This document shows, piece by piece, positions 10,001 to 31,154 of a stretch of 44,315 nucleotides of DNA (the first letter of the stretch is position 1; each line of letters starts with the position of its first letter). This DNA is from Elusimicrobia bacterium GWA2_66_18 (lineage in GTDB: Bacteria > Elusimicrobiota > Elusimicrobia > UBA1565 > UBA9628), in assembly GCA_001799675.1 (NCBI GenBank), contig MGTX01000006.1, forward strand, positions 1 through 44,315. The letters run 5' to 3'. The notes under the pieces are model-generated. The model saw nothing but the letters and a program-made list of their open reading frames with translations. It was not told the origin of the DNA and did not search any database. The translations under genes and the position numbers were made by a program.

Positions 10001-11721
10001 AAGTCGGCCTCACCCGCCTGCACGCGGCCAAGCTGCTCAAGGCTCTCTACGCGGACCCCACCATGCCCGCGCACCAGCGCGACAACCTGTTCTGGAACGT
10101 CGCGCCCTCCCTCCTCTGGCCCAAGGGTCCCGGAGGCAAGAGCTCCTCCTGGGTGCGCACCGAGCTCCTGCGCCAGCTCCACGGCTTCTACGAAGACCCC
10201 GCCGGCATCCGCCTAGACGGCCGCACCAAGCACATCAACGTGGTCCACAACGGGCAGTGGTTCGAGTCCATGGACAACGAGACCCGCCGCTTCTGGGAGC
10301 TCGAGTATGGAGTCGATTTGACCCTGCCTTACACGAACCAGGCCATCAGCACCATCAAGGACGTCACGACCGACAAGAAGGCCCGCTTCATCTCCTTCTC
10401 GGGCACGGCCGGCGAGAAGCTGCGCGATCACTTCGAGAAGAACAAGATCAAGATCGTGGGCGTGGGCTCCAAGCCCCCGGACGTCGTGGAGCTTGACGTG
10501 GTGACCGGGGGAGAGAGCCGTTTCAAGCGCATCGGCCAGGCCTTGGCCAACATGAACTCCAGCCGCGGCGAGGTGCTCGTGCGCTCCCTCGACTCGGCCC
10601 CGGAGGGCGTGCGCGAGGCCGTCGAGTCCAAGATCGGCGGACCCCTCAAGGAACCCGCGATGCTCAAGCTCGCCGATTTCGCCGAGCCCAAACTCTCCGA
10701 AGCCCGCGAGTGGCTCACCGGTCTGCGCCGGACGCAGGGCGATGCCGACCACGTGGTTCTGCGCCGCGCGGACGCCGTCCCCGCGGGCCTCAAGCCCGCC
10801 GTCGACGCCTATCTCGCCGCGAGCAAGCTGGCGGGCAAGGAGGACGCCGTCGTGCGCATCAGCGAGGTCCAGAGCGACGCGGCCCAGGCCTGGCTGCGCG
10901 AGCTGCGCGCCAACCAGAAGGACACCGGCCTCGTCGTGCTGAGCGTCTCCGACACGCGCGTGCTCAAGACGGTGCGCGAGCACCTCCTCCGCGGCGGCCT
11001 CAAGCCCGACGAGATATCCATGGTCTTCTCCGACGCCGAGTACCTGCGCAACAACGTGCCCGAGGCGGAGGTGGCCAAGCAGATGAACCTTGGCGCGCTC
11101 GATCAGGGCAAGGCCCGGGTGCTCATCCTGGACACCCGCGTCGGCGGCCGCGGCCTCGACTTGAACTTCAAGGGCGAGCGCGGCAACCTCGACCCGAAGG
11201 CCTTCCGCGGCTACACCGACTTCGAGATGCTCCTCGTAGATCCCCAGAAGATGTCCTCCGTCCACCTCCTGCAGGCCGAGGGCCGCATCGACGTGGGCCG
11301 CGTCCTGCCCGCGGCCAGCCGGGAGTTTTCCCTCGTGATGGACGTCAAGTCCGTCCAGGGCGAGCGTATCTTTCGCGAGATGGTCAAGACCGATCCCTTC
11401 TTCGATCAGAAGACGGGGTTGCGTTCCGATCCCGTCTTCCAGAAGTATGCCTCGGAGCATAAGATCGTCGACCCCGACTGGGCGACCTTCCACCAGTATG
11501 TGCGCGAGCGCCTCGCCGACCCCCTCATGGAGCCCGGCGTGGGCGCGGACGTCGCGCGCGCGCGCGCCCGCGAGCTGGCGGTCAAGTACAAGGAGACGGT
11601 CAAGCGGCATCTCGAGCGGCAGCAGGCCGAGGTCGAGATGAACCAGCTGCGCTCATCCTCCGTCGAGACCGACGCGCCCATCACCGTCGGCCGTTTCCCC
11701 GGCATCGAGGGCATGCGTTAA
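4096..11721 (+). CDS. Giant exported SecA-like DEAD-motor protein (2541 aa)
   Basis: The protein starts with a probable Sec signal peptide (MKSLARKT, alanine-rich core, ending near residue 30). Residues about 40-1340 are mostly helical and unfamiliar, with a hydrophobic stretch near 580. A motor then follows: Walker A TGGGKTM at about 1351-1357, a DEMDG box at about 1436, a long predicted coiled coil at about 1500-1890, then a second RecA-like half with FSGTAGEKL at about 2100, LDTRVGGRGLDLN at about 2344 and QAEGRIDVGR near 2390. These match helicase motifs Ia to VI in the SecA style (AGRGTD and QLRGRSGRQGD in SecA). The size far exceeds SecA (about 900 aa). An ATP-driven motor behind a signal peptide is odd, since ATP is absent outside the cytoplasm. 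Either the N-terminus is a membrane anchor or the motor is used differently. Similar giant proteins occur in Elusimicrobiota, as far as I recall. Confidence 0.8.
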   Translation: MKSLARKTIALAAAAALAHGALPPAAFCVGVKASAAVEPAAALRKMREWGVYKNGDVLQTYLGDQGRLTPLGLSLYLSLANRYNAAEEVEGLKPVFDRLRENGPYDARRAGNVERAVKLFEQKFGRIDDDSAGSLEDQFMRGAQREALMTGAAVNEPPKPGDLSQVQTEDGFEFWDKKGLAYRLNNHQATTYNRELQKAQRQMNLSRPAQASQIPETGRYNFEMFDYSRWRLKNQYEDLVEGLRRDRLVAIAELLGEANKFRSDMWLADKTLEADLLGKARRKNYRHRGKDYNLLQLVDAKFAQRQYYLDGSLQGVSRYEADMNQLKAALKADPTVTDAQVRTLSLDEQYSLRFLSLAVLETQMFYVRNQSERLDPASPDSAQVMKALDDSTLPAEVKANYKARAREMVERLKALSSILERTRKTLEAADYAGSLDMANSALSSSQRELGELSADYSMFVEIPAVAHLGQQQTDVRWLNFGSKLTRGVYRAARPGCDYAQAMRSLEAGRGEYDALIRTIAAGDLAAARRGLIAMNPGAVKQSFEASLGGSPGRITDAARLAASLKVNRDRIGTVFETNKWLDTAGNYITWTVSLALAAPTARWGLNGVAGKLARFTNLEAAAGSSMAARAGVAMMRRGSIIISETARHTAARLETLDPSRAWVQSRAETAVGRFLLAGSVRGLNAGVRQASFSSLSGGISGAFVLGFHLWDQAALKVGGRQVLKPGHSMFSGDLDGAAEAFWTGVKGGVWWANETWHPGLGYVGLPSTVYRGMRVTGAMDMVAARGVAGATLTGAKSLLGKAGLMPAAAEGGLAAPGLLERMAATGAAGKAGAFAFGMADNVAKYALFSQAAGWVGRQYGYYMPSMPVAFLHKDLGGYAGVADTPGTTKGLERRVKGAHAVSQKWLESPAWLLIPTFAAHQARDAVAYMRSKEGVEQYDRNGLTHEYANAEEGAQLRFMERPKIPFAQRIFETSFFSDNAGEYWIVTKDVRREGIRKELVRSLGGEKATPADINPLEFYYASKLADGEKFINLKAGDEFRLIAHQDFIEGLLADPARAKRVLDAKLGTTVENFGRVTPEVQKDVAVALYSSELQTGKPMPKLLQGRVGEILKPYLEANESVKPYAEGFIDALKSAPSGDGFKAALDGICAEVTKWKQGGQPYTEFLVKLREDAAALKSAGKISAPEHEVLAKMYDYVESIERRFNSFNNVEKAQGLASETLSALKTEFSGRAGPTKVLDGFTLALDQWASGRGRADAVDGPKSDGSFRTMLAEQLRQLRAAKATLSPSEFAAMKGAVDEMASSPWVLHDSKGTALPGWRPEQFEGFMSSLAAYAEQGRGGAPVRIFQLLKTGGGKTMLTFEGLLPLAEADAAAHAMKPMFLTVQSNLEAQARMEFIAFKKIGSKLDFDTYEGFKTKIAEGKTKGRNALRDYWILGDEMDGAALQPALTIGEVTGRVTKLNPIYNRMEELDNVMGSRIERIQSGQANKALTEARRAGNNLSRLEGPDAQAVKAEGVRLEGAARELVEAQGPRARHSAEAGLRQSAQRLEGLLDALPSSQRKIVEGAHQNLARMKSVLSEPATDARARRAMVNDLEAGFARQKNLLELTGSERGLSRLAVEARRAVTALEVRAERLEREAAAAEGSQAPGASERARALREELSLVRRELGAAQRFDAVDSGLRLAHLQERIAGAEGSEGAPVRKLSGWKSAAAEIEQTLPAERKAACDGHAEALRKIYETGRELNRVNDEIHAAAREGRPTEELQTRRAALESDYGALQGEAQRYKAELSAGASSGDLGGMSRRLAVLSAEEARLDGQVQSAKIRGERAGPQRARLAEVRAEIQTLDKRTQSEVRRRFDAAADEITAEVGGAKPGWEDRSLRLLEQRRRMLTAYAGDENPVYTVFREMKEDMRSFAMNERLRSPDPQVYEPVRDALLRQVDGQALGTFGWKLPKFLWRVFTGKEVGIPINEVGLTRLHAAKLLKALYADPTMPAHQRDNLFWNVAPSLLWPKGPGGKSSSWVRTELLRQLHGFYEDPAGIRLDGRTKHINVVHNGQWFESMDNETRRFWELEYGVDLTLPYTNQAISTIKDVTTDKKARFISFSGTAGEKLRDHFEKNKIKIVGVGSKPPDVVELDVVTGGESRFKRIGQALANMNSSRGEVLVRSLDSAPEGVREAVESKIGGPLKEPAMLKLADFAEPKLSEAREWLTGLRRTQGDADHVVLRRADAVPAGLKPAVDAYLAASKLAGKEDAVVRISEVQSDAAQAWLRELRANQKDTGLVVLSVSDTRVLKTVREHLLRGGLKPDEISMVFSDAEYLRNNVPEAEVAKQMNLGALDQGKARVLILDTRVGGRGLDLNFKGERGNLDPKAFRGYTDFEMLLVDPQKMSSVHLLQAEGRIDVGRVLPAASREFSLVMDVKSVQGERIFREMVKTDPFFDQKTGLRSDPVFQKYASEHKIVDPDWATFHQYVRERLADPLMEPGVGADVARARARELAVKYKETVKRHLERQQAEVEMNQLRSSSVETDAPITVGRFPGIEGMR

Positions 11722-16263: not shown

Positions 16264-17184
16264 ATGGGGCGCCCAAAACGAATCCAGTTCGCCGGAGCCT
16301 GCTACCTGATCTGCCTGCAGGGCAACAACCGTCAGGATCTTTTCCTGTCCAGCCAGGACCGGCGCCAGTTCCTGACGATGATGAAGTCCTATAAGGAACG
16401 CCACGGCCTGAAGGTCTACGCGTACGGTCTGACGGGGAATTCCGTCTTGCTCCTCGTCGAGACGGCGCAGCCGAATCTTTCCAACGTGATGCAGGGCTTC
16501 AACACCCGGTACACCAAGTACTTCAACGCCGCCCATAACGCCGTGGGACACGTCTTCCAGGGCCGCTACAAAGCCTGGCTGGTGGACAAGGAGACGCACC
16601 TAGCCGAGATGACGCGCTACGTGCACCTGGCCTGCGCGAGAGAAGCCCTGAAGGATAAGCCCTGGCGTTATCAGTGGTCCTCCTGCGCCGCCTATGTCGA
16701 GGCGCAGCGCAAGGAGCCTCTGGTGGACTCCGACATCGTCCTGCGCGAGTTCGGCAACGGGCGCCTCACGCAGTCCGTGCGCTACCTCCAGTACGTCAAG
16801 GACCGCATGAAGTCGGCCGGCGGCGAGGTCCTGCCCATCGTCGGCGTCGCCATCGGCGGCGAGGACTTCCTCGCCAAGTTGGCCCAACGCCGGGACGCGC
16901 CGGCCCAGCCGCGCGCGGCGCCCGTCGAGGCCGCCCGCAAGATCATCGCCGAGGTGGCCGCGCGCCGCGGCGTCAGCGAAGAGAAGATCCTTAGCCGCGT
17001 CCAGTGGCGCGAGGTTTCGGCCGTGCGCCGAGAGGCCGTCCACCGGGTCTGGAAGGAGACCCGCATGGGCGTCTGCGAATTGGCCCGCCTCTTCCGCCGC
17101 ACCCCCAGCGCCATCAGCCAACTCATTCGTTCCGTCGAAGGCGGCGCCGACGCCTCGATGATGAGACAAGCATGGATTGGCTGA
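16264..17184 (+). CDS. RAYT-like Y1 transposase family protein lacking the HUH motif
   Basis: This 306-residue protein follows the REP-associated tyrosine transposase layout: GNNRQDLFLSSQDRRQFL, then VYAYGLTGNSVLLLVET, then GHVFQGRYKAWLVD, then EMTRYVHLA. The family normally has N-H-V-H (the metal-binding HUH pair). Here residues 60 and 62 are Ser and Leu, so both histidines are gone. The likely nucleophile Tyr119 remains. After about residue 225 a DnaA-C or HTH-like domain follows (RRGVSEEKILSR through TPSAISQLIRSVE). It probably binds DNA but should not cut it by the HUH mechanism, so it may be domesticated. It overlaps the next kinase gene by 13 bases. Confidence 0.82.
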   Translation: MGRPKRIQFAGACYLICLQGNNRQDLFLSSQDRRQFLTMMKSYKERHGLKVYAYGLTGNSVLLLVETAQPNLSNVMQGFNTRYTKYFNAAHNAVGHVFQGRYKAWLVDKETHLAEMTRYVHLACAREALKDKPWRYQWSSCAAYVEAQRKEPLVDSDIVLREFGNGRLTQSVRYLQYVKDRMKSAGGEVLPIVGVAIGGEDFLAKLAQRRDAPAQPRAAPVEAARKIIAEVAARRGVSEEKILSRVQWREVSAVRREAVHRVWKETRMGVCELARLFRRTPSAISQLIRSVEGGADASMMRQAWIG

Positions 17185-20733: not shown

Positions 20734-21576
20734 GTGAGAGCGCTCACTTTCCTGGCGAGCCGTTTCGTGGCCGGCGACGACATCGATGAGGCGGTGTCGG
20801 CCGTCGGCGTCTTGAACGCGGAGGGAATCAAGGCCACCCTCGATAACCTGGGCGAGGACAGCCTGACCCGCGAGCAGGCCCTGGCCGCCGCGCAGGAGAA
20901 CTTCCTCATGCTGCGGCGCATCGCCGAGTCCGAGGTGGACGCGAACATCTCCCTCAAGCTTACCCAGCTCGGCTTGGCCTTCGACGAAGGCCTGGCCCGG
21001 GAGAACCTGACGCGCATCCTCGAGGAGGCCGCGCGCCGCGGTATCTTCGTGCGCGTCGACATGGAGAGCTCGGCCTGGACGCAGAAGACACTCGACCTAT
21101 TCTACGCGCTCAAGCCCCGCTTCCCTGACTGCGGCATCGTGCTCCAGTCCTGCCTGCGCCGCACCGAGGCCGACGTCGAGGAGGCCGTCGCGCGCGGCGT
21201 GCGCGTGCGCCTGTGCAAGGGCGCCTACCGGGAGCCGGCCGAGCGCGCGTTCCAGGGCAAAGATGAGGTCAACGCGAACTATGACAGGTGCGCGGCCCTC
21301 CTGACCAAGGCGCCCCTTCCGGCTTTCGCCACCCACGACGACGCCCGCATCGCGGCCGCGCTCAAGGCCTGCGACGCGGTCGGCTTGGTCAAGTCCGACT
21401 ACGAGATCCAGATGCTCTACGGCCTGCGCGCCCGCCGCCGGCGCGAGTTGAGGGTTCAGGGGCATGTGGTCCGCGTGTACGTCCCGTACGGCACGCACTG
21501 GTTCCCCTATTTCCACCGCCGTATCCGAGAGCGCAAGGAGAATGCGATGTTCGTCTTAAGGAACCTCTTCGAATGA
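20734..21576 (+). CDS. Proline dehydrogenase (monofunctional)
   Basis: This 280-residue cytosolic flavoenzyme oxidises proline to pyrroline-5-carboxylate, passing electrons to the quinone pool. Diagnostic segments are SLKLTQLGL, VRLCKGAYREP, FATHDD, and the C-terminal substrate-binding stretch RVYVPYGTHWFPYFHRR. The length fits the monofunctional TIM-barrel form found in Gram-positive and deep-branching bacteria, not PutA. GTG 20734 is the start, 6 bases after a -10 box. The stop overlaps the tdh start (ATGA), so proline and threonine breakdown are co-expressed. No P5C dehydrogenase is in the window. Confidence 0.92.
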   Translation: MRALTFLASRFVAGDDIDEAVSAVGVLNAEGIKATLDNLGEDSLTREQALAAAQENFLMLRRIAESEVDANISLKLTQLGLAFDEGLARENLTRILEEAARRGIFVRVDMESSAWTQKTLDLFYALKPRFPDCGIVLQSCLRRTEADVEEAVARGVRVRLCKGAYREPAERAFQGKDEVNANYDRCAALLTKAPLPAFATHDDARIAAALKACDAVGLVKSDYEIQMLYGLRARRRRELRVQGHVVRVYVPYGTHWFPYFHRRIRERKENAMFVLRNLFE

Positions 21577-22601
21577 AGGCTCTGCTCAAGAAGACCCCGG
21601 CGCCCGGCGCCGCCTACGAGGCGACCGCCGACCTGCGCGTCCGCCCCGATGAGATCCTCATTAAGGTCCATCGCGCCTCGATTTGCGGATCGGACCTTCC
21701 CATCTACGGCTGGAACTCCTGGGCGCCCGAGCGCTTCAAGACGCCCAGCACCTTCGGCCACGAGTTCTGCGGCGCCGTCACGGAGATCGGCGCGGGCGCG
21801 CGCGACTTCGCCAAGGGGGACTTCGTCTCCGTGGAGAGCCACATCTTCTGCGGCCTCTGCTACCAGTGCCGGAACGGGCAGCGCCACGTCTGCCGCGAGA
21901 TGAAGATCATCGGCGTGGACGGGCCCGGAGGCTTCGGCGAGTACGCGGCCGTCCCGGCGCGCTGCGCCTGGAAGCACAAGGACGACGCCTTGAAGGACCT
22001 GGGCTCACTCTTCGAGCCTTTCGGCAACGCCGTCTACTCGGTCCTCGTCGAACCCGTGGCGACGAAGTCGGTGCTCGTGATGGGCTGCGGTCCGCAGGGG
22101 CTCTTCTCCATCGCGGTCGCCAAGGCCTCGGGCGCCTCTCCCATCGTCGCCGTGGAGGGGTCCGCGTACCGGGCGGATCTGGCTCGTCGCATGGGCGCTG
22201 CGGCCGTCGTCGAGCCGGGAAACCTCGACGCGGTCTTGAAAGCCGGCAAGGCGGAGGACGGATACGACGTCGTCTGCGAGATGTCGGGCGCGCAGTCCGC
22301 CATCGCCATGGCCTTCAAGGCCGTGCGCAGCGGAGGCCGCATCTCCGCCTTCGGCCTGCCTTCCAAAAAGATCGAGATCGACTGGGCCAACGACCTCATC
22401 TTCAAGGGAGTGCGCGTCCACGGCATCGTGGGCCGAGAGATCTTCGAGACCTGGTATAAGGCGGACCGGCTCCTGCGCTGCGGCGCGGTCGACCTCGCCC
22501 CCGTGGTCACCCACACCTTCCCGCTCAAGGATTACGAGGCGGGTTTCGCCGCCATGTCCTCTCCCGATAAGAAGTGCGGGAAGGTCCTGTTCGTTCCCTA
22601 G
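21573..22601 (+). CDS. tdh: L-threonine 3-dehydrogenase
   Basis: This 342-residue zinc-dependent MDR enzyme oxidises threonine to 2-amino-3-ketobutyrate with NAD+. The catalytic zinc ligands are Cys38 (SICGSD) and the His-Glu of FGHEFCG. The structural zinc loop is FCGLCYQCRNGQRHVC. A Rossmann motif (VMGCGPQGLFSIAVA) follows. Cys38 sits at the same number as in E. coli Tdh. The next enzyme, glycine C-acetyltransferase, is encoded at 24722-25915, so both steps of threonine breakdown to glycine and acetyl-CoA are present, though separated by an insertion. The start overlaps the proline dehydrogenase stop. Confidence 0.9.
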   Translation: MKALLKKTPAPGAAYEATADLRVRPDEILIKVHRASICGSDLPIYGWNSWAPERFKTPSTFGHEFCGAVTEIGAGARDFAKGDFVSVESHIFCGLCYQCRNGQRHVCREMKIIGVDGPGGFGEYAAVPARCAWKHKDDALKDLGSLFEPFGNAVYSVLVEPVATKSVLVMGCGPQGLFSIAVAKASGASPIVAVEGSAYRADLARRMGAAAVVEPGNLDAVLKAGKAEDGYDVVCEMSGAQSAIAMAFKAVRSGGRISAFGLPSKKIEIDWANDLIFKGVRVHGIVGREIFETWYKADRLLRCGAVDLAPVVTHTFPLKDYEAGFAAMSSPDKKCGKVLFVP

Positions 22602-24721: not shown

Positions 24722-25915
24722 ATGACTGCGAACACCGCTTCCCTCATGGATTTCCTCGACGAAGAGAACGCCCAGCTCAAGAAGGAAGGCCGCTTCGTGA
24801 AGTTTCGCGTCCTCTGCGGCCGGCAGGCCCCGGTCTCGCTCATCGACGGCAAGAAGGTCGTCAACCTGACCTCGAACAATTATCTCGACTTGACCGCGCA
24901 CCCCAAGCTCAAGGCCGCGGCCAAGGCGGTCATCGACACCCACGGCGTCGGGACCGCGGCGGTGCGCCCCATCATCGGGACCATGGACATCCACCTCGCC
25001 CTGGAGGAGAAGCTCGCCCGGTTCAAAGGCGCCGAGGCCTGCCTCGTCTTCCAGTCCGGCTTCACGGTCAACGTGGCCTGCTGCCAGAGCCTGATGAGCG
25101 ACCCCGCGGACTTGCTCGTCTCCGACGAGCTCAACCACGCTTCCATCATCGACGGCGCGCGCCTGGCCAAGGCCGCGCGCAAGATCTATGCGCACAAGGA
25201 CATGAAGGCCCTCAAGGAGATCCTGGAAGCGTCTTCCGGGGCGCGTCGGCGCATGATCGTGACGGACGGCGTCTTCTCGATGGATGGGGATCTCGCCCCT
25301 CTTCCTGAAATCGTGGATCTGGCTGAAAAATATGAAGCCTTCGTGATGGTCGACGACGCGCACGCCTCGGGCGTGATGGGCGAGAACGGACGCGGAACCC
25401 CCTCGCATTTCGGCCTCTGCGACCGCGTCCAGATCCAGATCGGGACCCTCTCCAAGGCCGCGGGCTCCATCGGCGGCTACGTGGCCGGTTCTCGGCGCCT
25501 CATCGACTATCTTGCCTCGGTCGCCCGTCCCTTCATGTTCTCGAGTTCGCATCCCCCGTCGGTGGTCGCCACCTGTTCGGCGGCCGTGGACGTCATGTTG
25601 GAGGAGCCGCAGCGCATCGCGAAGCTCTGGGAGAACGCCCGGCATTTCAAGGAGGGTCTCAAGAAGCTCGGCTTCGACACCGGCGCCTCCGAGACCCCGA
25701 TCACCCCGGTGATCGTCGGGGACGCGGAGAAGGCTCAAGCTTTCTCATCGCGGTTATTCGAGGAAGGCGTCTTCGCGCTGGCCATCTGCTACCCCATAGT
25801 GGCCCGCGGCAAGGACCGCCTGAGGACTATCGTTTCCTCGGGACACACGACCCAGGATCTGGATTTCGCTCTGGAGAAATTCGACAAGGTCGGACGGGAG
25901 CTCGGATTGGTATAA
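24722..25915 (+). CDS. kbl: Glycine C-acetyltransferase (2-amino-3-ketobutyrate CoA ligase)
   Basis: This 397-residue PLP enzyme belongs to the alpha-oxoamine synthase family. The PLP lysine is Lys245 in QIGTLSKAAGS, close to the position in E. coli Kbl. Other family signs are LTSNNYLDLTAHPK, the DDAHASGVMGENGRG loop and RPFMFSSSHPP. It cleaves 2-amino-3-ketobutyrate with CoA to glycine and acetyl-CoA. The tdh gene 2.1 kb upstream supports Kbl over BioF or other family members. The start is set by TATAAT ending 6 bases ahead. A role in the following peptide operon is possible but less likely. Its stop overlaps the next promoter. Confidence 0.85.
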   Translation: MTANTASLMDFLDEENAQLKKEGRFVKFRVLCGRQAPVSLIDGKKVVNLTSNNYLDLTAHPKLKAAAKAVIDTHGVGTAAVRPIIGTMDIHLALEEKLARFKGAEACLVFQSGFTVNVACCQSLMSDPADLLVSDELNHASIIDGARLAKAARKIYAHKDMKALKEILEASSGARRRMIVTDGVFSMDGDLAPLPEIVDLAEKYEAFVMVDDAHASGVMGENGRGTPSHFGLCDRVQIQIGTLSKAAGSIGGYVAGSRRLIDYLASVARPFMFSSSHPPSVVATCSAAVDVMLEEPQRIAKLWENARHFKEGLKKLGFDTGASETPITPVIVGDAEKAQAFSSRLFEEGVFALAICYPIVARGKDRLRTIVSSGHTTQDLDFALEKFDKVGRELGLV

Positions 25916-25925: not shown

Positions 25926-26873
25926 ATGCCGATATCCTTGCTGAAGGTTGAAGATTCCCTCGCCCGCGTGCGTTCCGGACTGGAATCGCGCGCGCGTCGC
26001 ATCGAGGGCCGCGTGGGTCGGGAGCTGGCCGCCCACATCTGCCGCCCGGGCAAGATGCTCCGCGCCCGTTTCGCTCTTCTGCTGGGCGCGGCGATGGGCG
26101 TCGATGAGGCCAAGGCCGAGGGCGTGGCCCGCGCGATGGAGCTGGTCCACAACGCCTCTCTGCTCCATGACGATTGCGTCGATGAGGCGGAAACCCGGCG
26201 CGGGCGCCCGACCCCGAACCAGGTCTTCGGCACGACGCTGGGGCTCCTCCTCGGCGACCTGGCATTCTCCCAAGGACTGGAAGAGGCCATCGACATCTCC
26301 CCGAACGCACCTAGGCTTCTCGTGACCGCCGTTCGGGAGATGACAGTAGGCGAGCTGCAAGAAGAGTTCCTTAAAGGCTCGACGACCGTCGGCATGGACG
26401 CTTATATGGGCGTGGCCGCGCGCAAGACGGGTGCCCTCTTCGAGTGGGCCGGGGCGGTGTTTTCCGAACTCTCGCCCTTCCCTCACGAGCAGGCCGACCC
26501 TCCGCGCCTGGCCTGCGCGGCCGGCATCCTGCTCCAGATCGTCGACGACATCCACGACTACACCCTGACCGAGCGCGTCTCCGGCAAGGATGAGGCCCAG
26601 GATCTGCGCAACCGGCGCCTGACCTTGCCCTGCATCTTCGCCCTCCAGGACCAGGGCTCCCGCGAGGAATTCCTGTCTCTATGGAACGACGGCGAGACCG
26701 ACGCGGCGCGCATCACGCGTTTCCTGAAGGACCGAGGCTATCTACAGACGACCCGCGAGAAGGGTCGAGAGATCGTCGATTCGATGGCCGCCATGACCAA
26801 GAAGCTCCCTTGCCGCGCCGAGGCGGCTGAACTGATTTTTTTCATCGAGATCATGGCCAAGAGGGAGTTCTAG
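25926..26873 (+). CDS. Polyprenyl diphosphate synthase
   Basis: The 315-residue all-helical enzyme extends isoprenoid diphosphates. The first aspartate-rich motif DDCVD is at residues 82-86 within LLHDDCVDEAETRRGRPT, and the second, DDIHD, at 207-211 in LLQIVDDIHDYT. These bind Mg2+ and the diphosphates. The N-terminus lacks the usual first helix in part but has GKMLRARF, matching the family's GGKRLRP. Product length cannot be read. The gene heads a one-strand operon ending at 31154 and stands two bases from the next gene. With the UbiA-type gene downstream it likely supplies the prenyl donor. This could be for a respiratory quinone or, as I propose, for a modified peptide. Confidence 0.88.
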   Translation: MPISLLKVEDSLARVRSGLESRARRIEGRVGRELAAHICRPGKMLRARFALLLGAAMGVDEAKAEGVARAMELVHNASLLHDDCVDEAETRRGRPTPNQVFGTTLGLLLGDLAFSQGLEEAIDISPNAPRLLVTAVREMTVGELQEEFLKGSTTVGMDAYMGVAARKTGALFEWAGAVFSELSPFPHEQADPPRLACAAGILLQIVDDIHDYTLTERVSGKDEAQDLRNRRLTLPCIFALQDQGSREEFLSLWNDGETDAARITRFLKDRGYLQTTREKGREIVDSMAAMTKKLPCRAEAAELIFFIEIMAKREF

Positions 26874-26875
26874 CC

Positions 26876-27316
26876 GTGTCGTACGAGGCTCTGCTCCGGA
26901 AGTCCTGGATAGTCGGGGACTTCGTCGTCTCGGAGGATGAGGCCGGGCGGGACGATTGCGCCGATTCGGCAAGCCGGCGCCAGGTACGCTTGGAGATGGA
27001 AGAGATCGCGGCGCGCGAGGTTTGGGACGCCAACTCCTGCCTCGTCGCCCATAGAGAGGGAATCATGAAACTGGCTCCGTTCGTGAAGTTCCGTGAGGAA
27101 AAGTTCGGCGCGGTGCTCTTCGAAACGCGCTCCGAGAAGGTCTACACTCTGAGCCCGACGGGCGCCGCCGTCGTGCGCGAGATCGTCGCGGGGGCCTCTT
27201 CGAGCGACCTCCCGTCGAAGCTGAAGGAGAAATACGATGATCCCTCCGGCAGGATGTCGCGGGAGGCCGAGTCCTTCCTCGCCGAGTTGAAGGAAAAAGG
27301 ACTCATCGTCGAGTAA
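26876..27316 (+). CDS. PqqD-like peptide chaperone with N-terminal extension
   Basis: Residues 64-146 form a PqqD domain (MKLAPFVKFREEKFGAVLF, then KVYTLSPTGAAVVREI, ending FLAELKEKGLIVE). In RiPP pathways this domain binds the precursor peptide and presents it to a radical SAM enzyme. The longer start, GTG 26876, has GAGGGAG at 26861-26867 and lies two bases past the upstream stop. The 63 extra codons have GC of 68/44/81% at positions 1/2/3, a coding signature. I do not recognise that extension (SYEALLRKSWIVGDFVVSED). An internal ATG at 27065 with AGAGGG upstream would give an 83-residue PqqD alone, so both forms may be made. Confidence 0.8.
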   Translation: MSYEALLRKSWIVGDFVVSEDEAGRDDCADSASRRQVRLEMEEIAAREVWDANSCLVAHREGIMKLAPFVKFREEKFGAVLFETRSEKVYTLSPTGAAVVREIVAGASSSDLPSKLKEKYDDPSGRMSREAESFLAELKEKGLIVE

Positions 27317-27321
27317 GCGTC

Positions 27322-28269
27322 ATGGAGACGAAGACCTCGGACCTTTCCGCGCCTCTGTACGTCGCTTGGCAGATCACCAACGAGTGCAATCTGTCCTGTC
27401 TCCACTGCATCGAGGAATCAGGTCCGGGCAAGGCCTTCCGGGATGAGTTGACCACCGCGGAGGCCCTCGGCGTTATCGACCAGTTGGTCGCCGCCGAGGT
27501 TCCCTACGTTTCCTTCTCGGGCGGCGAGCCGATGGTTCGCCCTGATTTCTTTCAGCTCGCGGAGCGCATCACCCGGGGAGGCGCCGGCCTCAAGATCGAG
27601 ACCAACGGGCACTTCCTTACGAAGGAGAACGCCAAGCGATTCAAGGACCTCGGCGTCAAGGCGGTTCAGGTCTCCCTCGACGGGGCCAGCCCCGCCGCCT
27701 TCAATAAGATGCGCGTCAATGGGCGCTTCGACGCGGCGCTCGACGGCATCCGCAATCTGCGCGAGGCCGGCGTCGCCGTCGAGATCAACTTCGTGCCCGC
27801 GAAGTTCAACATCCATGAGATCGCCCAGGCCGTGGACCTCGCGCACAGTCTCGGCGCCTGCTCTTTCTACACCGGCAAGATCATGTACACCGGCAACGCG
27901 GTCCGTACCTGGGCCGTCACCGCTCCCGACGAGAGCGATTATCCGCGGTATTTCGCCGCCCTTAAGGGGAAGTGCGACGAGTATAGGGGCCGCATGCGCG
28001 TGTATTACCACGAGATGGGCCTGCTCGAAGAGCTGCGCTACCGCCTGTTGAACCCGGCCGCTCTCTTCATCATCATCCCGAACGGACGGGTCAAGCTCAT
28101 CAACGCCCTTCCCTTCACTTGCGGCGATCTGCGCACGGACCGCTTGGGCGCCGTCTGGCGGAACTTCCAGGAGGCTTGGAAGAGCCCGATGGTCTCGGCC
28201 TTCATCGACCGTCTGGCCGAGGACCCGAGCATCGTCTCCCGCCTGCACCAGTTGGAGGCTGCGCTCTGA
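27322..28269 (+). CDS. Radical SAM enzyme 1 of the peptide operon (PqqE-like)
   Basis: The 315-residue protein has the 4Fe-4S/SAM motif C22-x3-C26-x2-C29 (ECNLSCLHC), then FSGGEPM near residue 74, KIETNG near 94 and VQVSLDGAS near 115. The layout is the PqqE/SPASM group that modifies peptides. The SPASM part is reduced: in the segment IPNGRVKLINALPFTCGDL only one Cys remains, so auxiliary clusters are probably absent. It follows the PqqD-like gene by five bases, the order found in PQQ-type pathways. It is the first of three paralogues in this operon. The substrate is likely the peptide at 30070-30189, by context. Confidence 0.85.
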   Translation: METKTSDLSAPLYVAWQITNECNLSCLHCIEESGPGKAFRDELTTAEALGVIDQLVAAEVPYVSFSGGEPMVRPDFFQLAERITRGGAGLKIETNGHFLTKENAKRFKDLGVKAVQVSLDGASPAAFNKMRVNGRFDAALDGIRNLREAGVAVEINFVPAKFNIHEIAQAVDLAHSLGACSFYTGKIMYTGNAVRTWAVTAPDESDYPRYFAALKGKCDEYRGRMRVYYHEMGLLEELRYRLLNPAALFIIIPNGRVKLINALPFTCGDLRTDRLGAVWRNFQEAWKSPMVSAFIDRLAEDPSIVSRLHQLEAAL

Positions 28270-28313
28270 GCGACGCCTTCACCGCGCCTCACGCCCCGGC
28301 CGAGCAGACCTTC

Positions 28314-29180
28314 ATGCTGAAGATCGCCTCGGTCGTGCGCTACCGCTTCTTTCTGTATGCGGGGCTCCTGCCGTATCTCTTGGGCGCGGGCTGGGCCTAC
28401 GGCGTGGAGAAGACCTTTCGCCCCGGGACCTTCTGGCTGGGACTATTAGGCATATTCCTGTCGGTCGTGGGCGTGGAGAGCTTCAACGAGTACTTCGACG
28501 CGAAGATGGGCACCGACCGCGTCTTCAACCCCGACGCGGACGAATGGATCCCCGAATGGATGTTCCAGCTCGGCGTGGCCGCCTTTGCCCTCGCAGCGGC
28601 CGTCGGTTTTTACCTTGCGTGGGAGGGGGGGTGGCCCATCGTCCTTTACACTCTCCTCGGAGGAGCGGCGGCGGTCTTCTATGTCGGTCCGCCCATCCGC
28701 TGGGTCTATCGCGGTCTGGGGGAGACGGTGATCGGATTGTCGTATGGTCCATGGATGACGTTGGGCTCGGTTCATCTCCACACCCACCGTTTCTCTTGGG
28801 GCGCTCTTCTGTCCTCTTTCGTGCCGGGACTTTTGATCATGTCGTTGGCCGTGGTGAATAATATCCCCGATTATCATCAAGACCGCCTCGTCGGCAAGAA
28901 AAACCTCGTGGTCCGTTTCGGCCGCGAGAAAGGGAGATACCTTTACTTGGCGCTCTCCCTGTCGGGATTATCCGTAATCGTCGCCGGGGTCTTTGCGGGG
29001 ATTTTTCCGAAGGCCGCGCTGCTGGCTTTCATGTCCGGCCTGCCGCTCTGGTTGATGAGCCTGACCGCCGGCCGCGAGACTTGGGACACGCCGCGGCTGT
29101 TCGTTCCGGCGGTGAAGCATATCGTCCAGTGCTACGCTCTGACGACGGCGATCTTCGCGCTCACGGCGGCTTGGGGATGA
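28314..29180 (+). CDS. UbiA-family prenyltransferase (MenA-like)
   Basis: This polytopic membrane enzyme moves a prenyl chain to an aromatic ring. With the ATG 28314 start it has 288 residues. The first aspartate motif is N58-E-Y-F-D62 with a further Asp68 (FNEYFDAKMGTD); the second is D186-Y-H-Q-D190 followed by RLVGKKNLVVRFG. Both resemble MenA, the naphthoate prenyltransferase, more than UbiA itself. An earlier start is possible: CTG 28266 overlaps the previous stop and has GGAGG at 28254-28258. The gene lies between two radical SAM genes and shares an operon with a polyprenyl synthase. No menaquinone ring-building genes are nearby, so the acceptor could be the modified peptide. MenA function in respiration remains possible. 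Confidence 0.87.
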   Translation: MLKIASVVRYRFFLYAGLLPYLLGAGWAYGVEKTFRPGTFWLGLLGIFLSVVGVESFNEYFDAKMGTDRVFNPDADEWIPEWMFQLGVAAFALAAAVGFYLAWEGGWPIVLYTLLGGAAAVFYVGPPIRWVYRGLGETVIGLSYGPWMTLGSVHLHTHRFSWGALLSSFVPGLLIMSLAVVNNIPDYHQDRLVGKKNLVVRFGREKGRYLYLALSLSGLSVIVAGVFAGIFPKAALLAFMSGLPLWLMSLTAGRETWDTPRLFVPAVKHIVQCYALTTAIFALTAAWG

Positions 29181-30052
29181 AGATTCAAGCCTTCGCCGCG
29201 CCGACCATGGTCGCCTGGCAGTTGACCCGGGACTGCAACCTCGCCTGCCTCCATTGCTGCACGGATTCCGCGCCCGGCCGCGCCATGCCCAATGAGCTGT
29301 CCCGCGAGAGGGCGCTTTCGCTGTGCCTTGAGATCGTTGAGGCGGGCGTGCCTTACGCCATGATCGTCGGGGGTGAACCCACCCTCGCGCCTCATTTCCT
29401 CGACGTCTGCCGCAGCCTCTCGGACGGCGGCGTCCTCCTTAAGATCGAGACCAACGGCCAGGACTTCGACGTCTCGCTCTTGAAGGGTATGGGCGTGCGC
29501 TCGGTCCAGATATCGCTTGATGGGGCGACCCAGGAGACCTATGCCAAGCAGCGTCCCGGCGGGACTCTCGCCAAGGCCCTGGAGGCCTGCGGCCGCGTCC
29601 GAGAGTCCGGGCTGCCTCTGGAGGTCACCTTCGCCCCCACTCGTCTCAACATCCACGAGGCCGAGGCCGTGGTCGCCCTGTCCGCTGAGCTTGGCGCTTT
29701 CCGCTTCAATACCGGCAAGCTCATGCGCCTGGGCACGGCGGCCAAGCTCTGGGACCGCCTGGAGCCCTCGGCGCAGCAGTACGCGGGCTTGCGCGCACTC
29801 CTCGAGCGGCGCGAGGAGGAGCTGTCGGGACGCATCGAACTCTGCTACAAGCCCTTCTCGCTGGACGAGGAGATGGCCGCCCGCCGGCTCGAGCCCTCCG
29901 GGACTTTGCTCATCCTGCCGGACGGACGCGTCAAAACGGCCGCGCCCCTGCCGTCGATCTGCGCCGATCTTTCGCATCAAAATCTGCTCGAAGCTTGGGA
30001 CGCATACCGCCGCGCGTGGCGCGACATCATCGATTCGCCGGTCGTGGTCTGA
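29177..30052 (+). CDS. Radical SAM enzyme 2 of the peptide operon
   Basis: The 291-residue protein starts at an ATG that overlaps the UbiA stop (ATGA). The cluster motif is C20-x3-C24-x2-C27 (DCNLACLHCC), followed by VGGEPT, KIETNG and VQISLDGAT. It is clearly a paralogue of the enzymes at 27322 and 30210, sharing WQLT, LHC-x3-S and LNIHEAE. The C-terminal SPASM-like part has ILPDGRVKTAAPLPSICADL with a single Cys, so again no auxiliary cluster is expected. It sits just before the peptide gene. Its difference from the others suggests a separate chemical step. Confidence 0.85.
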   Translation: MKIQAFAAPTMVAWQLTRDCNLACLHCCTDSAPGRAMPNELSRERALSLCLEIVEAGVPYAMIVGGEPTLAPHFLDVCRSLSDGGVLLKIETNGQDFDVSLLKGMGVRSVQISLDGATQETYAKQRPGGTLAKALEACGRVRESGLPLEVTFAPTRLNIHEAEAVVALSAELGAFRFNTGKLMRLGTAAKLWDRLEPSAQQYAGLRALLERREEELSGRIELCYKPFSLDEEMAARRLEPSGTLLILPDGRVKTAAPLPSICADLSHQNLLEAWDAYRRAWRDIIDSPVVV

Positions 30053-30060
30053 CCGGCGCA

Positions 30061-30067
30061 AGGAGAG
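30061..30067 (+). promoter_or_regulatory. Strong ribosome binding site of the precursor peptide
   Basis: AGGAGAG lies two bases before ATG 30070. It is the best SD match in the operon, fitting a peptide that must be made in excess over its modifying enzymes. Confidence 0.6.
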
Positions 30068-30069
30068 AC

Positions 30070-30189
30070 ATGAACGACCAGAAAACCGTGATCGATGCCA
30101 AGGCTCAGCCGAAGCTCGCTTGGGAGACGCCCTCCATGGAGGAAGTTTCCGAGCGCGTGATGGCTCAGCCCTACATCCGGTTCACGTGA
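30070..30189 (+). CDS. 39-residue PqqA-like RiPP precursor peptide
   Basis: The peptide runs from ATG 30070 to TGA 30189. After a charged leader (MNDQKTVIDAKAQPKLA) comes the core-like part WETPSMEEVSERVMAQPY and the end IRFT. Against PqqA the spacing is the same at five places: Trp18, Pro21 (+3), acidic Glu25 (+7), hydrophobic Val26 (+8), Tyr35 (+17). The Glu that PqqE joins to Tyr (+13) is Met31 here. So the Tyr is kept but the PQQ crosslink is not possible in the usual way. It has a strong SD site and its stop overlaps a possible GTG of the next enzyme. There are no Cys, Ser or Thr in lantibiotic pattern. The assignment is by context and spacing. Confidence 0.75.
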   Translation: MNDQKTVIDAKAQPKLAWETPSMEEVSERVMAQPYIRFT

Positions 30190-30209
30190 CGCACCGGAGG
30201 GGGGCGTCC

Positions 30210-31154
30210 GTGGGCGACTACGGCGCCCCCCTCTTTCTTGCCTGGCAGCTGACCAACCGCTGCACGGGCCGCTGCCTGCATTGCTGCGAGGAGTCCGGCC
30301 CCGACCGGGCTTGGGACGACGAGATGGACCGCGCGCAGGCGCTTTCGCTTGCGCGCGAGATCGTCGACTTGAAGATCCCCTATGTCGCCTTTGGCGGGGG
30401 CGAGCCGATGGCCGTTTCCCATGTCTGGGACATTTTCGAAACTCTCGCCTCCGGGGGCGCGCAGATCAAGATCGAGACGAACGGTCTCGATCTTGATGAG
30501 CAGGCCTGCGACCGCTTAAAAGCCCTGAATGCCGCCTGTGTCCAGATCTCCGTGGATGGCGGAACGGATGCCGTTCATGGAGCCTTGAGACCGGGTTCCG
30601 GCTATCAGCGGGCTTGGGACGCCCTGGATCGCTTGGTCAGGCGCGGCCTGGAGCCCGAGCTCGTCTTCATTCCGACTCGTTTCAACGTTCAAGACGCCGT
30701 CGCCGTTTATGAACAAGCCGCCGCGCGCGGCATTCGGACTTTCGTGACCGGCCCCATGATGCGCCTGGGCCGCGCCGCGCTGGCCTGGGACGACCTCGCC
30801 TGCGCCGAGGAAGACTGGGCCGAGGCCTCGATGGCGCTGAAGGCGGCCGCCGCCGCGCTCAGGGGCCCGCGTCTGGCGCTGTACCCCTGGTCCATCCAAA
30901 AAGAGATGCTCACCCGTGCCGCGAGCCCCCAGGCCATGGTGCTCGTGGTCCCCAACGGGAAGGTCAAGCTCCTCAACGCCCTGCCCTTTGCCGTCGCCGA
31001 TCTCAAGACCGAAACGCTGTCTTGCGCCTGGCCCAAGGTCGTAGCCGCCTGGCGTTGCCGGGAGGTCCAGGATTTCGTGCGGCGCGCGCAGTCCGAGACG
31101 GAGCTGCTGAGGCACGCCAACGAGTGTTGGGACCTTCAGAAGCGCGTCGAGTAG
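30210..31154 (+). CDS. Radical SAM enzyme 3 of the peptide operon
   Basis: With GTG 30210, which has GGAGG at 30196-30200, the protein has 314 residues. An alternative GTG at 30186 overlaps the peptide stop. The cluster motif is C18-x3-C22-x2-C25 (RCTGRCLHCC), then GGGEPM, KIETNG and VQISVDGGT. The C-terminal part (VVPNGKVKLLNALPFAVADL) has lost even the single Cys kept in the other two paralogues. The gene ends the operon and overlaps the tail of the next, opposing gene by 19 bases. Three diverged paralogues imply three separate steps or a heteromeric enzyme. Confidence 0.85.
   Translation: MGDYGAPLFLAWQLTNRCTGRCLHCCEESGPDRAWDDEMDRAQALSLAREIVDLKIPYVAFGGGEPMAVSHVWDIFETLASGGAQIKIETNGLDLDEQACDRLKALNAACVQISVDGGTDAVHGALRPGSGYQRAWDALDRLVRRGLEPELVFIPTRFNVQDAVAVYEQAAARGIRTFVTGPMMRLGRAALAWDDLACAEEDWAEASMALKAAAAALRGPRLALYPWSIQKEMLTRAASPQAMVLVVPNGKVKLLNALPFAVADLKTETLSCAWPKVVAAWRCREVQDFVRRAQSETELLRHANECWDLQKRVE

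Follow-up and report, generated by a model that had tools for sequence, protein, structure and literature searches.

A ribosomal peptide, PqqD, radical SAM and MenA-like prenyltransferase cassette that may make a membrane quinone in diverse bacteria

Standard bacterial lipoquinone routes begin at chorismate, and a polyketide respiratory quinone has reportedly been found in Streptomyces. A short ribosomal peptide accompanied by a PqqD-type chaperone and a radical S-adenosylmethionine (SAM) enzyme is a feature of two other pathways, those of pyrroloquinoline quinone (PQQ) and mycofactocin. Here we describe a gene cassette with features of both groups. It lies in a 44,315-nucleotide contig of Elusimicrobia bacterium GWA2_66_18 (MGTX01000006.1, assembly GCA_001799675.1), the whole of which was analyzed and is referred to below as the window. 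Genes for a GPPS-type polyprenyl diphosphate synthase (GPPS), a PqqD-family protein, a radical SAM enzyme (rSAM1), a UbiA-superfamily prenyltransferase, a second radical SAM enzyme (rSAM2), a 39-residue peptide (MNDQKTVIDAKAQPKLAWETPSMEEVSERVMAQPYIRFT) and a third radical SAM enzyme (rSAM3) follow one another there (Table 1). We put at about 0.58 the probability that the product of this cassette is a membrane lipoquinone (an electron carrier) whose synthesis the ribosomal peptide assists. The cassette looks undescribed so far, and no paper on the gene set was found among the titles and abstract openings of the open-licence PMC literature.

The cassette resembles the PQQ system (PqqA, PqqD and PqqE) in its short ribosomal peptide, its PqqD chaperone, its radical SAM enzymes and a tyrosine in the conserved peptide core. 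The resemblance ends at the level of the individual proteins. Against the PqqE model TIGR02109, rSAM1 scores 88 of 381.35 bits and rSAM2 and rSAM3 score lower, and the PqqD protein reaches 16.8 of 46 bits with the PQQ-type model TIGR03859. The core of PqqA is E-x3-Y, with a glutamate four residues before the tyrosine, whereas the cassette core reads V-M-A-Q-P-Y, with a methionine in that place. The cassette radical SAM enzymes also lack the SPASM cysteine set, and PQQ synthesis is not known to involve a UbiA enzyme or a polyprenyl synthase, both of which are present here. PqqB, PqqC and a protease are not among the seven cassette genes; the wider genome was not searched for them. Mycofactocin (MftA-F) is similar in having a peptide, a PqqD-like protein (MftB) and a radical SAM enzyme (MftC), whose NCBIfam model gives the highest score for both rSAM2 and rSAM3. 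However, the MftC model TIGR03962 yields 131, 97 and 101 of 265 bits for the radical SAM enzymes and the MftB model TIGR03967 yields 22.2 of 33 bits for the PqqD protein, and mycofactocin has another peptide core and is not known to be prenylated. Thus, model scores and the peptide core rule out membership in either system.

The two known menaquinone pathways offer a different kind of likeness. The cassette recalls the classical pathway in that its UbiA enzyme appears MenA-like in models, motifs and phylogeny and in that quinone-using enzymes are encoded nearby, whereas the peptide and the radical SAM enzymes are foreign to that pathway. The futalosine pathway (MqnA-E and MqnP) likewise uses a UbiA enzyme, also employs radical SAM enzymes, and its genes occur in cassette-free relatives of the window genome. 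It differs from the cassette in the position of the one MqnP that we used, which groups elsewhere in the UbiA tree.

The peptide is conserved far beyond the window. In all 30 loci picked by rSAM2 alone, these being the 30 best of an rSAM2-only search in 97 relatives and including the window itself, a short open reading frame (ORF) ends in VMAQPYIRFT followed by a stop codon. A preliminary description, made from the window's sequence, had named a non-conserved peptide frame as evidence against its claims; the frame is retained throughout this sample, and the motif W-x2-P-x13-Y that it gave is exact. Among 26 distinct DNA versions of the ten core codons, pairwise differences at codon positions 1, 2 and 3 were 0, 0 and 0.297, and the corresponding values for the leader stretch (W..P..EEVS..) of the same loci were 0.134, 0.105 and 0.385. 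Since the differences concentrate at third codon positions, the peptide is under protein-level selection, to which the core is subject more strongly than the leader. The core pattern was present in 47 of 340 Elusimicrobiota genomes and its reversed control in none; together with the codon differences, this rules out a chance ORF.

We also scanned a GTDB-derived collection with the core pattern and obtained 103 stretches, 101 of which were genuine; the matches in L109 and L125 were set aside as due to chance. The query was back-translated from MAQPYIRF, so that the conservation of these residues among the 101 matches is by construction. Positions outside the query are more informative. Sufficient upstream DNA was available for 101 collection sequences, the window included, and 99 of them show a threonine and then a stop; of the other two, L077 reaches the contig end after the threonine and L109 is the chance match. 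The 99 peptides share leader positions that were not part of the search pattern, namely, W (98), P (99), E at -7 (93), V (97) and S or T (99). By analogy with known systems, the stretch W-x-x-P-x-[LMI]-E-[DE]-V-[ST] is probably the leader bound by PqqD. A conserved short precursor is thus found beside modifying enzymes and a leader-binding domain, as expected of a ribosomally synthesized and post-translationally modified peptide (RiPP).

According to record titles, the genuine loci come from Elusimicrobiota, Omnitrophota, Planctomycetota, Lentisphaerota and Alpha-, Beta- and Gammaproteobacteria; single metagenome-assembled genomes (MAGs) labelled Deltaproteobacteria, Bacillota, Armatimonadetes and Ktedonobacter carry unreliable labels. 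Named strains with the cassette are Rhodopila globiformis DSM 161 (L100), Rhodothalassium salexigens DSM 2132 (L082), Rhodovibrio sodomensis DSM 9895 (L117) and Betaproteobacteria bacterium GR16-43 (L104). Two gene orders recur. Type A, (GPPS)-PqqD-rSAM1-UbiA-rSAM2-peptide-rSAM3, is found in Elusimicrobiota and Proteobacteria, and type B, peptide-PqqD-rSAM-UbiA-(GPPS), in Omnitrophota, Planctomycetota, Lentisphaerota, one Elusimicrobiota MAG (L056) and others. The 101 genuine loci comprise 48 of type A (radical SAM gene and UbiA upstream), 29 of type B (PqqD and radical SAM gene downstream), 15 that are cut or fragmentary with a radical SAM gene placed as in type A, and nine without a visible cassette gene, eight of which end within 0.7 kb of the peptide. 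The core pattern did not match in Gloeobacter, a genome of which may be missing from the collection. Viral contigs gave no match to the peptide, and plasmids none to rSAM1 at 1e-40. The contig of locus L052 (CALQLA020000020.1) is from a MAG, and its Bordetella parapertussis label is doubtful.

Where enough flanking DNA is available, the set is nearly always complete. All 23 type-B loci that extend 2.3 kb or further downstream go on to UbiA. Of the 14 loci that cover 3.4 kb on the upstream side and 2.3 kb on the downstream side, 13 contain PqqD, a radical SAM gene and UbiA together, the exception (L150) being fragmentary. The order PqqD-rSAM1-UbiA-rSAM2-peptide-rSAM3 on one strand was found in 18 of 20 fetched regions of relatives with an rSAM2 match, some with fragmented genes (L038, L043, L045 and L051); the other two (L048 and L049) are contig ends. 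GPPS heads the cassette in 16 of these 18 regions, but not in L032, where the contig starts, nor in L033. Proteobacterial type-A loci gave no tblastn match to GPPS, not even the seven that reach beyond 4.4 kb on the upstream side (L052, L066, L088, L100, L117, L139 and L152); Proteobacteria of this kind produce ubiquinone chains anyway. The genes therefore behave as one unit, as originally proposed, with peptide, PqqD, radical SAM enzyme and UbiA staying together in two orders across several phyla. The proposed trio of radical SAM enzymes holds for type A only; the smallest set, that of type B, is the peptide, PqqD, one radical SAM enzyme and UbiA.

A few loci depart from the full arrangement. 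In L038/L103 (genome G031), rSAM3 is broken about 25 codons in and its remainder lies 1.6 kb downstream, so that an insertion there seems likely. A Burkholderiales MAG (L191/L150, genome G100) carries a fragmentary copy made up of a partial rSAM2, an intact peptide and rSAM3 in pieces. The peptide of L070 ends at about position 1007 (flipped orientation), and a fuller locus, L068, is found elsewhere in the same MAG.

The top NCBIfam models for the window's UbiA enzyme are 1,4-dihydroxy-2-naphthoate polyprenyltransferases, with scores under the cut-offs, and the same holds for type B. Of 61 distinct cassette UbiA proteins, all have the first Asp-rich motif (mostly NEYFD...GTD) and 60 the second (of the D[FY].QD type). 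In a tree of 22 of these proteins and nine references, the cassette enzymes join Escherichia coli MenA (support of 97/92) and not UbiA, MqnP, CtaB or BchG; the E. coli MenA branch is very long, so that the grouping is a lean rather than proof. No solved structure was matched by sequence at an E value of 0.01. Taken together, models, motifs and tree lean toward a MenA-like enzyme.

The radical SAM enzymes were compared in a tree of 83 of the 188 distinct sequences, which resolved four clean groups: rSAM1 (18 rows; support of 100/99), rSAM2 (19 rows; 100/94), rSAM3 (19 rows; 100/97) and the type-B enzyme (27 rows). Because rSAM1, rSAM2 and rSAM3 form separate groups, the three type-A enzymes appear to have travelled together. 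In the search of the 97 relatives, rSAM2 had matches in 58 at an E value of 1e-20 or below, and those near the threshold were generic radical SAM proteins. An AlphaFold model, made for rSAM1 alone (pLDDT of 91), is closest in the PDB to SkfB, PqqE, BlsE and SuiB, with SkfB at the top (E value of 1.2e-16, TM of 0.74) and PqqE second; by sequence, SkfB, BlsE and PqqE lead. The predicted fold of rSAM1 is thus most like that of SkfB, a SPASM/twitch maturase like SuiB. The CxxxCxxC motif is present in all four groups, for which it was used in selection. Counting cysteines beside the motif, there are two further columns with more than 70% cysteine in rSAM1, four in rSAM2, two in rSAM3 and five in type B, and the pairs in rSAM1 and rSAM3 set these two enzymes apart from the SPASM/twitch maturases. 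Pfam assigns only PF04055 and PF13353. Since few additional cysteines are conserved, the four groups are, as judged from their sequences, peptide-maturase-like enzymes without a full set of SPASM auxiliary-cluster ligands.

We surveyed the known menaquinone routes in 78 genomes, composed of 64 with the cassette and 14 Elusimicrobiota without it, the latter hand-chosen from the relatives of the rSAM2 search. Neither MenD nor MenB exceeded its cut-off in any of the 78, compared with seven of 14 control genomes for each, which distinguishes the cassette from the classical pathway. Weaker matches to MenD (65 of 78) and MenB (53 of 78) had the look of related families. MqnA/D (PF02621) was over the cut-off in only two of the 64 cassette genomes (G078 with 33 bits and G131 with one protein of 137 bits), setting the cassette apart from the futalosine pathway as well, and in six of the 14 cassette-free genomes, one of them weakly; the window genome had no MqnA/D match. 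An association of the UbiA enzyme with men or mqn genes in relatives, and never with the peptide, had been foreseen as a possible refutation. UbiA was found instead to accompany the peptide across several phyla, in hosts without MenD or MenB over the cut-off and with MqnA/D in two of 64.

Mutual exclusion points the same way in the wider phylum. PF02621 matches occur in 34 of the 340 Elusimicrobiota genomes, 30 of them strong (four weak matches of family f5, in G057, G066, G073 and G078, were left out), and not one of the 340 carries both the peptide and a strong MqnA/D match (4.1 expected; P = 0.009, uncorrected for kinship). The window genome, which is 94.7% complete, has NuoD and NuoH over their cut-offs in a nuo-like gene run, and CoxB over its cut-off beside a UbiA-type protein resembling heme o synthase (171.6 of 210.3 bits with the CtaB model). 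This protein and the cassette UbiA, assigned from its 78 bits, are the genome's two PF01040 matches. Since the former is heme o synthase-like, the cassette UbiA is, by sequence, the only candidate quinone prenyltransferase found in this genome.

Published data on cultured hosts bear on menaquinone. R. globiformis is reported to contain menaquinone-9, ubiquinone and rhodoquinone (PMC12542754), and a study combining a 2.24-Å cryo-electron microscopy structure with quinone chromatography (HPLC) assigned menaquinone to the QA site and ubiquinone to the QB site (PMC9640540). The genome of this strain (G119) has no MenD, MenB or MqnA/D over the cut-off. Its best MenB candidate (318 bits, with a cut-off of 343) was rejected as BadI-like (464 bits, just under the cut-off of 467.6); this gene sits in a set that resembles, by eye, one for cyclohexanecarboxylate degradation. 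MenB matches of similar strength are found in G118 (312 bits), G102 (308 bits) and G097 (286 bits). With menaquinone made, the Men and Mqn tests failing and the cassette present, the cassette is the strongest candidate for the route by which R. globiformis obtains its menaquinone-9.

Menaquinone-10 (MK-10) is reported for Rhodovibrio (PMC7179689), and ubiquinone-10 and MK-10 are listed for Rhodovibrio salinarum, against ubiquinone only for six other genera of its family (PMC11316597). Among Rhodovibrio, the cassette was seen in R. sodomensis, and the MK-10 contrast concerns R. salinarum. Rhodothalassium, we presume, also has MK-10. A 2026 survey describes four species with measured menaquinone yet no pathway and states that an alternative pathway should exist in Gloeobacter and Anthocerotibacter (PMC13386864).

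Genes next to the cassette point in the same direction. Nine loci (L053, L067, L085, L086, L102, L123, L128, L131 and L144) have genes for the Na+-translocating NADH:quinone oxidoreductase (Na+-NQR) immediately before the peptide on its upstream side. Five of them belong to the 18 type-B loci that extend 1.9 kb or further upstream, and the other four are cut off downstream. NqrF is over its cut-off in L144. In L053 (4430-5929), NqrA also matches RnfC models, which gives it a hybrid NQR/RNF look. NqrF-like matches in L054 and L078 (28 to 29% identity) were dropped from the count, and L129, with NqrF downstream, was counted together with L067. The ends of these two contigs, both from a Lentisphaerota MAG, share 99 nt, which suggests the order GPPS-nqrABCDE-peptide-PqqD-rSAM-UbiA-nqrF, with the cassette inside the nqr operon between nqrE and nqrF; an assembly overlap of this kind does not prove a join.

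Other quinone-linked enzymes are encoded beside proteobacterial cassettes. Fumarate reductase genes come after rSAM3, on the opposite strand, in an Acidocella MAG (L182). FrdA and FrdB exceed the NF006383 and NF010071 cut-offs, and FrdC, with 157 of 187 bits, falls short of the one for its model; we take these models to describe the menaquinol-using Wolinella kind. In the Burkholderiales MAG, frdAB directly precede the fragmentary cassette copy (L191), and the full copy is about 15 kb away. BchP and BchG genes lie 2 to 5 kb from rSAM3 in a Kiloniellales MAG (L187), and a NiFe hydrogenase about 1 kb from the cassette in a gammaproteobacterial MAG (L194). Because such genes adjoin the cassette or lie near it, and because their products use, feed or accompany quinones, the neighborhood points to quinones. 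The preliminary description had suggested a redox cofactor or lipopeptide, derived from the peptide, possibly from its tyrosine, prenylated and membrane-anchored. These neighbors fit its redox and membrane-linked part; the tyrosine origin, the prenylation of the peptide and the lipopeptide are conjectural. The evidence goes beyond that description, toward a lipoquinone of respiration or photosynthesis that may substitute for menaquinone.

These observations can be assembled into a course of synthesis. As in known systems with PqqD or a RiPP recognition element, PqqD would hold the W-x-x-P-x-L-E-D-V-S leader while a single radical SAM enzyme (in the window, the trio) converts the core MAQPYIRFT to an aromatic head group able to form a quinol. 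A putative peptidase encoded elsewhere would free the head group. The MenA-like UbiA enzyme would then couple it with a polyprenyl diphosphate supplied by the cassette synthase or, in Proteobacteria, by the host's synthase of ubiquinone chains. The resulting lipid may serve complex I, reaction centers, Na+-NQR, hydrogenase or fumarate reductase, and the cassette would take the place of the Men and futalosine routes in genomes that lack them. A lipoquinone made with the help of the peptide is compatible both with peptide atoms entering the quinone and with the peptide merely carrying another precursor. More tentatively, and at somewhat less than even odds, we propose a third menaquinone-type pathway, in which the radical SAM enzymes carve the head group from the encoded, near-invariant MAQPYIRFT, a MenA-like enzyme prenylates it, and the genes have spread between phyla, replacing the Men and futalosine routes and supplying the QA menaquinone of R. 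globiformis.

Several observations weigh against a lipoquinone product. Both product and reaction are predicted from genes alone, and we know of no chemistry that leads from MAQPYIRFT to a naphthoquinone. The UbiA score with the MenA model TIGR00751 (60.6 of 102.15 bits) is below the cut-off. One genome, G131, combines the cassette with an MqnA/D-family protein. The mutual exclusion of peptide and MqnA/D is confounded by kinship and weakens when it is counted by genus (P = 0.032) or in 191 good genomes (P = 0.063). Two peptides lack cassette genes, that of L070 across 3.6 kb downstream and 1.0 kb upstream and that of L105 in 0.7 kb; the MAG of the latter has a fuller locus, L106.

Relatives without the cassette raise a further difficulty. 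Five genomes of the same family (G019, G020, G021, G024 and G034) have NuoD over the cut-off and no MqnA/D, MenD or MenB over the cut-off and no cassette-like UbiA; G019 and G020 are 99% and 97% complete. With complex I NuoD present in the absence of a known route or the cassette, another route or import is implied in these five. Many other genomes of family f15 have NuoD-like genes and neither the peptide nor MqnA/D. NuoD was dropped as a clean marker of quinone need, as there are two NuoD-like kinds and many carriers have no known quinone route. The methyltransferase MenG/UbiE is the last point of concern: its best match is weak or partial in 21 of 22 type-A Elusimicrobiota (full-length only in G029), and a full-length MenG is present in five Mqn-bearing relatives (in G059 near nuo genes), in G094 and G095, which have neither route, and in the type-B Elusimicrobiota G099. 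Given how rare a full-length MenG is among them, the product of type-A Elusimicrobiota may differ from methylated menaquinone.

This scarcity of MenG also suits a product that is not a bulk quinone but a redox cofactor derived from the peptide, prenylated and anchored in the membrane. Such a lipid counterpart of PQQ or mycofactocin would work with certain enzymes, and the menaquinone of R. globiformis would come from another, undetected route. A PqqD protein, PqqE- and SkfB-like radical SAM enzymes and a fixed core form the pattern of peptide-derived cofactors, and in some Proteobacteria the cassette adjoins specific enzymes. We nevertheless regard such a cofactor as unlikely, since neither complex I nor the cytochrome oxidase of the window genome would then have a known quinone source, and the menaquinone of R. 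globiformis would be unexplained.

Still less probable is a peptide that acts as carrier or activator only. In this case, a small precursor, from chorismate or of other origin, would be held by PqqD and the peptide while the radical SAM enzymes turn it into a naphthoquinone-like ring, and no peptide atoms would enter the product. The menaquinone head group is indeed hard to derive on paper from MAQPYIRFT, and a MenA-like UbiA suggests a naphthoate-like substrate. However, the full invariance of the core exceeds the apparent needs of carriage, and carrier peptides for quinone synthesis have, to our knowledge, not been described.

We give slightly less credence again to a prenylated lipopeptide, whether a signal, a membrane lipid or an antimicrobial, made from the whole core. 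A ribosomal precursor beside a prenyltransferase and radical SAM maturases would suit it, and several recurring neighbor families without annotation could include an exporter. Yet the core is invariant in loci chosen without regard to it, unlike typical bacteriocins or signals, the identified recurring neighbors are redox enzymes, and UbiA enzymes work on small aromatic acceptors in known cases. That UbiA and the synthase belong to ordinary quinone synthesis and sit by chance next to an unrelated peptide system, as operons may contain unrelated genes and L070 shows an orphan peptide copy, is largely refuted by the joint occurrence of peptide, PqqD, radical SAM enzyme and UbiA in both arrangements and several phyla and by the lack of MenD or MenB over the cut-off, as partners for UbiA, in the 78 genomes.

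If the lipoquinone reading is correct, a ribosomal peptide as starting point or carrier in quinone synthesis would be a new principle, and quinone predictions would change for Elusimicrobiota, Omnitrophota, Planctomycetota and some Proteobacteria. The cassette offers a well-defined set of candidate genes, carried by cultured phototrophs, for deletion or transfer.

Table 1. Features of the cassette, in window coordinates
Feature	Position	Strand	Basis
trans-Polyprenyl diphosphate synthase (GPPS-type)	25926..26873	+	PF00348, 140.5 bits
PqqD-family peptide chaperone with N-terminal extension	26876..27316	+	PF05402, 40.5 bits (cut-off 23.4), residues 79-144
Radical SAM 1 (rSAM1)	27322..28269	+	PF04055, 92.7 bits
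MenA-like UbiA-superfamily prenyltransferase	28314..29180	+	PF01040, 78.2 bits
Radical SAM 2 (rSAM2)	29177..30052	+	PF04055, 75.5 bits
39-Residue precursor-like peptide	30070..30189	+	Conserved ORF; no NCBIfam or Pfam family
Probable leader stretch W-x-x-P-x-[LMI]-E-[DE]-V-[ST] of peptide	30121..30150	+	Residue conservation
C-terminal core VMAQPYIRFT (first residue V, sometimes I)	30157..30186	+	Codon-position differences
Radical SAM 3 (rSAM3)	30186..31154	+	PF04055, 80.2 bits

All seven ORFs of the preliminary description were recovered at the positions it gave, packed on one strand with gaps or overlaps of 2, 5, 44, -4, 17 and -4 nt, and the Pfam matches of the six genes other than the peptide all exceed their gathering scores. 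The 44-nt gap depends on the ATG chosen as the start of UbiA and would be removed by an earlier, non-ATG start. For rSAM3, the start is a GTG that overlaps the peptide stop, with an alternative GTG at 30210.

The window contains several other genes of possible interest. An acyltransferase-type gene of the BioF/Kbl kind (24722-25915; TIGR01825 over the cut-off) ends 10 nt before the cassette, and such a gene lies upstream on the same strand, at varying distances, in four of the 20 fetched relative regions. The gene at 21288-22601 has the look of a zinc-dependent threonine dehydrogenase, a plausible partner for a Kbl-type enzyme. An ORF of 2541 codons (4096-11721) has, by eye, a signal-like start, and the gene at 16264-17184 reads, again by eye only, like a REP-associated tyrosine transposase.

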